From assembly GCA_944474755.1 (NCBI GenBank), contig OX104112.1, positions 54,975,176-55,039,175 on the forward strand: a stretch of 64,000 nucleotides of DNA, read 5' to 3'. The notes beneath the pieces are model-generated. The model did not search any database, had not been told where the DNA came from, and saw only the letters and a list, made by a program, of their open reading frames with translations. This DNA comes from Limnoperna fortunei. Taxonomy: Eukaryota > Mollusca > Bivalvia > Mytilida > Modiolidae. Of the stretch, positions 19,447-41,018 are shown in pieces. Positions within the stretch are counted from its first letter, which is position 1. Each line of letters begins with the position of its first letter. The position numbers were made by a program, and so were the translations under genes.

Positions 19447-19502
19447 TAGTTAGTAAGATATTCAACACTATGAACGGGGTACTGTTATCCGTTGTATTTT
19501 GT
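19447..19502 (+). other. Leader exon 1 of the giant Gly-X gene
   Basis: A pyrimidine-rich acceptor ending TTTCAG at 19446 precedes 23 bases of 5'UTR, then ATG at 19470, eleven codons (MNGVLLSVVFC) and a consensus GTAAGT donor at 19503. An untranslated exon must lie further upstream; I could not place it. The layout matches exon 1 of the His/Gly peptide gene at 39642-39699. Confidence 0.78.
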
Positions 19503-22500
19503 GTAAGTTTTTGTTGAGTTCAAAGTTCATAACTTTCATGATAATGCGATATGTTAATTAGTATACATAATCTTAATTTAGTTATATATTTTATTAATAT
19601 AAATATCAATTATATGTACAAAATAAATCACACAAAGAATAACATACAGGTTTCGGAAATAAGCATTTTTAAATTCTTAAAATTACGATAAAATTTTATT
19701 TTCAAACTATGAGCATGCTTGGAGAGTAAATGGAAATAGGAAATGTACATGTACATATATGTCAAAAATAAGCAGGATAGAAGCAGAATAAATAAGTAAA
19801 ACAGTCAATATGAAAATAGAATTAATGAAATAGTGGAATGCAGTTAACAAAAGCGTTAGGTTTGAAAAAATATATTGGAATCTGAATTTAAGAATTGTCT
19901 ATATTGTTTATTGCTAGTAATTAAGAAACACATATTACTAAAACGAACATTGCATTTAAATTTTTTTTATTTGAATATTGTTTAACGCCACTTTCATCAA
20001 TTTTCCAGCTATATCATGGCGTCCAATTTTTATTGGTGGAGAATGCCGGAGTACCCGGAGAAAACCCCGGTAGGAAAACTGGCAATCCTTGTCAATTAGG
20101 ATTGGAGTCGATTGCACCCTTCCCGCAGTAAGACTCGACCCGCAACCTAATTGTTGACAGACCACGTGAATAACAGTAGATTAACATTAGACGAACTACC
20201 TTAAAGACTCTGCCACCGGGTCCCTTTGTATTTAAGAGTTACATGTTTCATGTATGGTCTATGCTATCCTGCTTTGAGACAAATATGTAAAAATCTACAA
20301 AAATTGTTGTAAAGCCTTTGCACGTTTAGCTAATTTTGAAACGCGGTATCAACGCCAAGTAAAGGCTTTTAATATACCGTACTTAATAATAAATTAACTG
20401 GTATAGTTCAGATTCATCAGAAAAGTATCACTTATTATTATTAATAATAAGCAACCCTATGAATTAAATTTTAATAATTTTAAAACGATGTGACGAATGA
20501 AGAATCAGTATGCACAAAATATTTAACCAGAAGAAATAGTTTTTAAATATTTTATATAGGTAGTCTCTTTGTTATTTGACGAAGCAATTACAGATAACTA
20601 CGGCGGTGAGTTGTTTTCTGATGGTTAATGGTCCAAATTAATTAACAGTTTTCAATAGTTATTGCCATATGTTCTAATTTATTCGATATGTACAAGTAAA
20701 TACATCGTGCTGCATTATTTAATATGCAGTGTCTGTCGGCATTTTAAGATCCACTGTCTGCCCAGGATGGCTTTTCCCGTCTCTAGAATGCCCTTTGCGT
20801 TTTCATGCCCCGAAATGAGCCTGGTTTACCAGGTACCCAAGCTAACCATTCTGTCTCCAAAATCGTATAACGTATACACAGTGTGGCAAAACACAATACT
20901 TCTTATCGATCAGCAATAGAGGCCGCAAGATGCCCCAAACGATTTCTTGGAGTTTGTAAGCTCACCTGTTTGTTTGTAAAATGATGACCACATTGTACTT
21001 TGAATATTTTAATCCTTAACAAACGTAGCCATGCTAAAATTAAAACAGTTACTGTTCTAATAAAGCTTTCAATTATTTACAGTTTACATTTTTATGCAAA
21101 TTGCTAATTGCAATTGGCTATACCTTCACCGAATGCAAACTTTCAGCCAATGAGCATTAATCAAGTACCATGCGCACGTGTTAAATGCAAAAAGAAATTT
21201 TATTGATAATACGATTATCAAAATCTTTGTAGGAAGCATTCCAGTAAACAGGAAGTGGTTAGACAGGTTTATAGATAAAGCACACAAAGGAATACATAGC
21301 GGAGCTTCCAGTCACAACAGCAAAGATAATGACCATTCCAGTTATGAAGAAAACGAATACGAAAGTAGAAGAGGCAGCTACAACAGCAACAGCGGTAGCT
21401 ATAGCTTTAATAGTAGAACCGACTATAGCGACAGTAATGATCTTTTCGAATATGGAAGTAAAAACTTGGAACATTCTGGAGATAGATACAGTGTGTGGGG
21501 TACTGCTAACTGGGGCAAAGGTAAAGGTGACGGCAAAGGAAAATACAAAGGAAAAGGCACCGGTAAGGGTAAAGGCAACGGAAAAGGTAAAGGAGACGGC
21601 AATAACCTTTTAAGTTATGACGACAATAGTTATGATGCTGAAAGTGATAGCTATAGATTTAGTAGTAGAACCGAATATAGCGACAGTAATGATCATTCCG
21701 GATATGGAAGTAAAAGCTTGGAACAATCTGGAGATAGATACAGTATGTGGGGTACTGCTAACTGGGGCAAAGGTATAAGCAAGGGTATAAGTAAAGGCAA
21801 AGAAAAGGAAAAAGGCAAAGGAAAGGGAAAAGGAAAGGGCCATAACCATTTAAACTATGAAGACAATAGTTATGAAACTGAAAGTGAACAAGATTCTAGC
21901 TCTGATGCAAACTGTAATGACCTTTCAAACTATAGTAATGAATTTTCTAACAGTGAAAGTAAAAGCTATAACGTATGGGGTAAAATCAATTGGATAAAGA
22001 GTAAGGGCAAGGGTAACAACGAATACGGGGGTGGCAAGGGTAAAGGAAAGGGGGATGGCGAGGGAAAAGGAACAAGTTATGGTAAGGGTAAAAGCAATGC
22101 CGAGGGCAAGGGCAGAGGCGATGGAGTTGAAAAGGGCAAGGGAGATGGCGACGGAAAAGGAAAGGGTGATGGTCAAGGTAAAGGTTATGGTTACGGTGAG
22201 GGAAAAGGCAAGGGAGATAGTAAGGGTAATGGGAAAGGCGATGGTGAAGGAAAAGGCAAAGAAAAAGGCGACGGCGAGGAAAAAGGCAAGGGGGATGGTG
22301 AGGGCAAAGGAAAAGGCGATGGTGAGGTAAAAGAAAAGGGAGAGTGTGAGCTCAAAGGAAAAGGCAAGGGCGAAGGAAAAGGCAAGGGAGATGGCAAGGG
22401 AGAGGGAAAAGGCAAGGGTGATAGTGGGGGAAAAGGCAAAGGAGAAGGTGAAGGAAAAGGAAAAGGCGATGGTGAGGGAAAAGGCAAAGGAAAAAGCAAA

Positions 22501-40498: not shown

Positions 40499-40577
<79 letters not shown>

Positions 40578-41018
40578 ATTGTACAAATCGTAAATATAAC
40601 TTTTTGTAAAGGTAGCTGGGGTTCATAATTTGTACATCAAAATTAACAAAAAACAAATAAAATTAAATTATTTGAAAATTTAAGACAATAAAAATTGAAA
40701 AAACTTTGTATTTGTATATTGTTGGGCATAGAATCGCACGGCATCCCCAATTGTTTTTTTATAATTTTTTTTACACCATAGGTGATATGCGCTTACAAAT
40801 ATATCATTTATAGGTACTTTTGTATATTAAAAACAATTTCAGGAGGCCATAATGGACATGAATACAAAAAGACCTACAGCACGGTTGTAGGCCATGGAGG
40901 ACACAGGAGAGGCCACATAGGTAGGCATAGAATGGGACCACATAACAAACATTTTGTAGGTCACTATGGACATGGTAACAAGAAAACATACTACAGTATC
41001 AAGATTGCAAGCTACTAA
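39667..41018 (+). CDS. Small secreted His/Gly-rich cationic peptide (three coding exons)
   Basis: Coding exons are 39667-39699, 40042-40102 and 40843-41018, giving 89 residues. Exon 1 (MKGILLCVVIL) ends at GTAAGT in phase 0. Exon 2 (TFLVLVNNVTGGIISYTVYK plus one base) runs from a TATAG acceptor to GTAAGT in phase 1. Exon 3 follows TTTCAG and continues in frame through an Arg codon. The first 22 or so residues form a strong signal peptide. The mature part has 10 His in its last 57 residues, seven of them as Gly-His, many Lys, Arg and Tyr (KKTY twice), and no Cys. The composition suggests metal binding, adhesion or antimicrobial use; none is shown. An AATAAA lies 69 bases after the stop. It converges on the B-box gene at 43,654. 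The exon plan is the same as in the giant Gly-X gene. Confidence 0.8.
40232..40470 (-). mobile_element. SINE in intron 2 of the His/Gly peptide gene
   Basis: TTTGTTTGAATGGTGTTTAG, ACCCCCGACCTGCGGTAG and CACTCGGCTACCGAGGCCCC mark the copy. CATCGTTATTCG (40222-40233) and CATTGTCATTCG (40472-40483) look like an aged 12-bp target duplication. Confidence 0.88.
40497..40580. repeat. (AAAT)n microsatellite
   Basis: About 20 uninterrupted TAAA units follow the SINE. The left boundary of the segmental duplication lies about 110 bp further right. Confidence 0.97.

Follow-up and report, generated by a model that had tools for sequence, protein, structure and literature searches.

The giant Gly-Lys repeat gene G1 and the small His/Gly peptide gene HG appear to belong to one tandem gene cluster, in which a similar two-exon leader has probably been spread by duplication and the terminal exons have probably diverged by turnover of their repeats. 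HG itself would most likely be either an old, divergent member of this family or the product of a captured exon. Positions prefixed with w refer to the window, i.e., the whole stretch of 64,000 nucleotides that was analysed (GC content 35.3%), and those prefixed with C2 refer to contig 2, a w position being the C2 position minus 54,975,175. Close reading covered 296 kb (C2:54843176-55139175), and whole-genome searches covered 1,335,373,924 bases in 285 contigs.

G1 joins a short, split leader to a long repetitive exon on the forward strand. Exon 1 (w19470-19502, 33 nt) encodes the 11 codons MNGVLLSVVFC and ends in phase 0 at the donor GTAAGTT, with a CTTTCAG acceptor 23 nt upstream of the ATG; the predicted exon 2 (w20560-20605, 46 nt) encodes VVSLLFDEAITDNYG plus one base and ends in phase 1 at GTGAGT; the terminal exon (w21233-26541, 5,309 nt) consists of a Ser-rich head followed by a Gly-Lys array in which a 24-nt unit occurs 179 times. 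The introns of this predicted model measure 1,057 nt (phase 0) and 627 nt (phase 1), and the predicted product has 1,795 residues with 42.4% Gly. It should be noted that the splice scan listed 16 candidates for exon 2; the one adopted here was chosen for its agreement with exon 2 of the genes A and B described below and for the retention of its splice sites in a broken G1 paralogue, Gdeg (w1030-1075). It has a profile score of 21.8, and the reversed control does not exceed 20.0. The array looks truly coding: codons one period apart show 8.8, 3.1 and 50.6% differences at codon positions 1, 2 and 3, respectively, a bias pointing to constraint at the protein level, as purifying selection would leave. 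The G1 head has four matches in the genome, all within the window.

HG follows the same layout on a much smaller scale. Its exon 1 (w39667-39699, forward strand, 33 nt, 11 codons MKGILLCVVIL) ends in phase 0 at GTAAGTT, with a TTCAG acceptor 25 nt upstream of the ATG, exon 2 (w40042-40102, forward strand, 61 nt, TFLVLVNNVTGGIISYTVYK plus one base) ends in phase 1 at GTAAGT, and the His/Gly-rich terminal exon (w40843-41018, forward strand) spans 176 nt. The predicted introns are 342 nt (phase 0) and 740 nt (phase 1) long, and the predicted product of 89 residues contains 16.9% Gly, a mature part of fewer than 80 residues and a Lys-Arg pair at the junction of exons 2 and 3. HG may represent a small cationic His-rich peptide, possibly metal-binding. 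The HG protein has five matches in the genome, all in the cluster region, and no candidate sharing three words with it was found in the public protein collection. Two broken copies of the terminal exon were detected: HG57 (w57703-57858, forward strand), which carries a stop codon and a small insertion and has no leader found beside it, and HG3 (C2:54845448-54845623). HG differs from HG57 at 3, 4 and 5 sites in codon positions 1, 2 and 3, and from HG3 at 1, 2 and 8 sites, respectively. A B-box zinc-finger ORF is also present in three reverse-strand copies (w43657-45351, w60370-62073 and C2:55050682-55051870), the first two passing the Pfam zf-B_box cut-off and the third found by tblastn in three pieces; each is situated downstream of an HG exon or leader at a distance of a few kb, as though the ORF and HG had been duplicated as a unit. 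Other features of the window include minisatellite-like arrays open in several frames (w32038-33679) and a reverse-strand ORF (w52389-52880) with a phage-integrase N-terminal domain just below the cut-off (21.1 vs 22.3 bits), perhaps part of a tyrosine-recombinase transposon.

Further members were sought, and two intact gene models, A and B, were found outside the window by a scan of 264 kb including it, which listed ATG-initiated open exons of 11 codons with a GT[A/G][A/T]G donor and required no particular peptide. Fifteen of its 19 rows were set aside as not leader-like, and the other four are the leaders of G1, HG, A and B, the latter two also with the donor GTAAGTT. Gene A (C2:54964868-54967000, forward strand, predicted 416 residues, 31.9% Gly) encodes MKGTFLLAALL, VVLVLTDDATGKCKQRHGHKWSRGHHL, a His/Ser-rich head and KGKGYEEGKGKGEGKGDG-type repeats, and gene B (C2:54920610-54918365, reverse strand, predicted 275 residues, 16.7% Gly) encodes MKGLLLSVALL, VVLMLINEATGRHRNRGHKA, an A-like head and PKGASKVATLGI repeats (36-nt unit, 13.6 copies). 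Neither A (residues 1-130) nor B (residues 1-110) has homologues at E<=0.001 in the public protein collection, whose molluscan coverage is uncertain, and no Pfam domain exceeded its cut-off in HG, B or residues 1-124 of A. A kinship of A with myticins was considered and rejected, as the Pfam Myticin-prepro profile (PF10690) matched at E=0.018 and 15.7 bits against a cut-off of 28.5; the genome search with this profile returned a single sub-cut-off match (E=0.498), located elsewhere.

All four intact models share a 33-nt exon 1 ending in phase 0 at GTAAGTT, a phase-1 exon 2 and a single terminal exon, the first intron being of phase 0 and the second of phase 1 in A and B as well. The common anatomy that the first-pass annotation had described for G1 and HG (an 11-codon phase-0 exon at GTAAGT, a short phase-1 second exon and one terminal exon) is confirmed in the sequence at the level of gene models, as is an acceptor 23-25 bp before the ATG, the distance being 23 nt in G1, 25 nt in HG, 18 nt in A and 25 nt in B. 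The description of the leader as fixed does not hold, since exon 2 measures 46, 61, 61 or 82 nt in the four models. The placement of the whole mature protein in the terminal exon stands in part: judged by eye, the signal peptide extends to about residue 22, so that exon 2 would contribute the first mature residues and the terminal exon the remainder.

Five partial or broken relatives lie near the cluster, namely HG57, HG3, Gdeg and the loci C and D. In Gdeg, exon 1 (C2:54975105, 70 bp left of the window) encodes MKGVLLSVVFC and has lost the donor GT, exon 2 (w1030-1075, forward strand, VVNVFFDEAMTHSYV) has kept its splice sites, and the frame of the broken terminal exon (w8847-10540, forward strand) closes after 63 codons; over w9400-10540 the forward frames contain 14, 14 and 34 stops, respectively. 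Exon 2 is identical to that of G1 at 36 of 46 sites and differs at 10, being no better kept than the surrounding 79.4% match, and its profile score of 16.0 is below the reversed-control maximum of 20.0, the identification resting on DNA homology with G1. Locus C (C2:54950224) consists of an exon 2, VVLVLTDGAT, and a short B-repeat-like exon coding for GASQTVAEGASLGIPKGCTT, with no leader seen, and D (C2:55046214) is a leader, MKGILLCVGVF, without a donor.

Comparison of the leaders connects G1 and HG through a third gene. P values were obtained from shuffles keeping the signal-peptide zones and are uncorrected for the 18 pairwise tests. Between G1 and HG, five of the ten residues after Met are shared in exon 1 (P=0.027) and one of 11 in exon 2 (P=0.69); the match over both exons is weak (P=0.11). 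With both exons considered, the shuffles gave P=0.0009 for B and G1, 0.0005 for B and HG, 0.0002 for A and B, and 0.0055 for A and HG; the match of G1 and A is weak (P=0.068), and that of the HG leader against the other three has P=0.0005. Exon 1 of A taken alone is not significant against any partner (P=0.12, 0.27 and 0.52). Since the B leader resembles both and the direct match is weak, the case for kinship between G1 and HG depends on B as the intermediate. The first-pass proposal of a family in which a common leader is combined with variable low-complexity exons is supported by A, B and the five partial or broken copies nearby, though not by the direct comparison of G1 and HG taken alone. 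The intron DNA of HG shows no similarity to that of the other genes except for a dispersed repeat common with G1. This repeat of about 250 bp, which presumably resembles molluscan RUDI-type SINEs, has many copies in the window (e.g., w12657-12880, w28198-28458 and w36726-36979) and occurs in intron 1 of G1 (w19957-20218) and intron 2 of HG (w40234-40377).

On the scale of the genome, the leader type is confined to the cluster within the reach of exact patterns, which more distant members elsewhere could escape. A strict DNA pattern of the two leaders with the GTAAGT donor occurs at two places, G1 and HG, with 0 matches in the reversed control. A looser pattern of the four leaders gives six matches, four of them inside 94,311 bp, against three in the reversed control, and neither of the two extra matches has an ATG two codons upstream. 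As this pattern was built on the four leaders, their recovery is by construction, and the informative outcome is their clustering together with the lack of any further ATG-led place. Phase-0 leaders of the MxGxLLxVV type, whose abundance among unrelated genes had been named at first pass as a result that would speak against a family, were not found to be common by these genome patterns. A genome protein search with a composite of the G1 and HG leader peptides, a query too short to inform, gave no match. A profile built from the four intact genes and applied to the 296 kb scored six exon-1 leaders at 27.2-35.0, with the next best at 21.0, and four of its ten rows (21.0 or less) were set aside, the reversed control attaining 21.8. 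The five top exon-2 scores were 21.8-29.0 against 20.0 in the reversed control, and two of the eight rows (15.5 and 15.0) were set aside. The independent finds of this profile are Gdeg, C and D only.

In the terminal exons, the heads of A and B, compared up to their repeat arrays, are related (z=8.5), and the arrays that follow differ in chemistry, with Gly-Lys repeats in A vs PKGASKVATLGI repeats in B. A short KGKG stretch is kept in B immediately 5' of the PKGAS array, and together with the relatedness of the heads this stretch suggests that the array was changed inside a related exon. The terminal exons of A and G1 show borderline similarity (z=1.9; E=2.7e-4 at 42% identity in low-complexity sequence), and those of B and G1 show none (z=0.4). 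The mature part of HG is unlike those of A, B and G1 (z=1.1, 1.1 and -0.9, respectively), low complexity hiding ancestry in such comparisons; its kinship with the A/B head, considered for a similar His/Arg/Gly wording, is not supported by the values for A and B. No detectable common element was found between the mature parts of G1 and HG, in agreement with the first-pass annotation; the further proposal that one leader is joined to unrelated mature exons has been shown for no pair, HG possibly excepted, and the terminal exons of A and B are related. As a tracer of repeat origin the B terminal exon was of little use: it has at least 145 genome matches at E<=0.001 among the best 150 of 2,511 candidates, low complexity dominates them, and no source locus could be named among the matches listed. 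Long open repetitive frames weakly matching this exon occur at C14:40166346-40172012, C11:60912731-60917408, C9:4946149-4964937 and C2:104460140-104468183.

The distinctness of HG invites the hypothesis of exon capture, in which its terminal exon, and perhaps the array of B, had an origin elsewhere and became attached to a duplicated copy of the leader via the phase-1 intron, the leader being a truly exchangeable cassette. The HG leader is indeed close to that of B (P=0.0005), its mature part is unlike any of the other three, the second intron is of phase 1 in all four models, and precedents have been proposed for aphids (PMC7495047) and scorpions (PMC5308243). Against this, the genome search turned up no donor of the HG terminal exon, all five genome matches to the HG protein being local, although a missing donor match is weak evidence because short low-complexity exons lose similarity fast; A and B, in turn, illustrate how an array can change while the exon around it stays recognisably related. 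On balance, we regard exon capture as a tentative and rather unlikely explanation. Its strongest form, in which the tandem two-exon leader has been repeatedly coupled within one 94-kb cluster to terminal exons of unrelated origin (Gly-Lys, PKGASKVATLGI and His/Gly), is doubtful. If true, new secreted matrix proteins would arise through exchange of the last exon alone, the broken copies being failed trials.

The leaders could also be alike by convergence, as signal peptides are inherently similar, phase-1 introns are common near their ends, and the 20-kb proximity of G1 and HG may be accidental. The weak direct similarity of G1 and HG (P=0.11 for both exons and 0.69 for exon 2) is compatible with this, as is a general excess of phase-1 introns at signal-peptide ends, described in PMC1626468. 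We nevertheless consider it quite improbable: B matches both G1 (P=0.0009) and HG (P=0.0005), a 33-nt exon with a GTAAGTT donor recurs in four models within 94 kb, and no other ATG-led pattern match is present in the genome. That the exons are wrongly joined, the leaders being remnants or fortuitous open frames, with terminal exons that are part of other transcripts or of none, is very improbable, for although the gene models are predicted from sequence alone, the G1 exon 2 was picked among several candidates and the five nearby copies are partial or broken, layout and phases agree in four models, codon-position bias is seen in the G1 array and in HG vs HG3, and G1 and Gdeg are separated in exon 1 by a single difference over 33 sites, inside a 74.9%-identity match.

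Under the preferred explanation, i.e., duplication of the leader with repeat turnover in the last exon, tandem gene duplication would copy the two-exon leader, each gene ending in a differing terminal exon. Intron 1 would split the hydrophobic core, so that both leader exons jointly make the predicted signal peptide, and exon 1 with the start of exon 2 would export the product. The phase-1 intron near the cleavage site would separate a constrained export signal from a freely changing mature exon, so that terminal repeats may lengthen, shorten or give way to others with export left intact. Slippage or unequal exchange would drive the growth and alteration of the arrays themselves, consistent with PMC4897951. 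The products of the cluster are probably extracellular structural, matrix or gel proteins.

Because repeats erase ancestry, it is still an open question how lineage-specific proteins of shell, byssus and mucus originate. Leader exons may keep the ancestry lost by the repeats, and the leader described here could serve as a short tag for tracing such families in other genomes. The presence of intact, diverged and broken copies in one cluster lets one ask whether repeat turnover or exon capture shapes new terminal exons.

The principle of a secretion cassette is already known. The first-pass annotation had regarded the pairing as undescribed, and this appears to hold for the cluster and not for the principle: secretion cassettes with unlike mature parts have been published for other animals (PMC7495047, PMC5308243), and a literature search, with subscription papers mostly outside its reach, found no description of the present cluster, its split leader or its mix of repeat chemistries with a His/Gly peptide. 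In the pea aphid KQY/KHI families, a conserved signal-peptide coding region precedes divergent distal sequence and combinatorial cassette assembly has been proposed (PMC7495047). The present genes likewise share a signal-peptide coding region, the leaders being related via B with weak G1-HG and G1-A matches; however, the aphid distal parts are miniature exons with mostly scattered mappable loci, whereas here each gene has one terminal exon and all lie in one cluster. In scorpion venom genes, the leader is divided from dissimilar mature exons by a phase-1 intron close to the signal cleavage site, and exon shuffling has been proposed (PMC5308243). In contrast to the folded, Cys-rich or helical venom peptides, the genes described here encode low-complexity proteins and possess an additional phase-0 intron inside the leader.

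Parallels are also found in molluscs. Myticalins, antimicrobial peptides of mussels, are reported in PMC5577615 to have a conserved signal peptide, a hypervariable mature part, a phase-1 second intron, pseudogenes and an intron just before the ATG. The present family resembles them in its similar signal peptide, variable mature part, phase-1 second intron, broken copies and intron just before the ATG, but the signal and mature peptide of myticalins share one exon, whereas here the leader is spread over two exons and the mature part lies in a third. Proteins of the SilkSlider class (PMC4944945) carry a signal peptide recognised by SignalP, lack a transmembrane domain and have a glycine content of 25% or more within 80 residues of the mature protein; by overall composition, G1 with 42.4% Gly and A with 31.9% agree with the glycine criterion, and both have leaders that are signal-peptide-like by eye, while HG, with 16.9% Gly and a mature part shorter than 80 residues, does not, and B contains 16.7% Gly overall. 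Molluscs are well known for families of secreted, repetitive low-complexity proteins in which motifs are gained, lost and swapped (PMC4897951). The shematrin and KRMP shell matrix proteins of pearl oysters are repetitive low-complexity proteins of the same kind, likened here by description and not by sequence; compared with them, the present cluster places three repeat chemistries and a His/Gly peptide behind one leader type.
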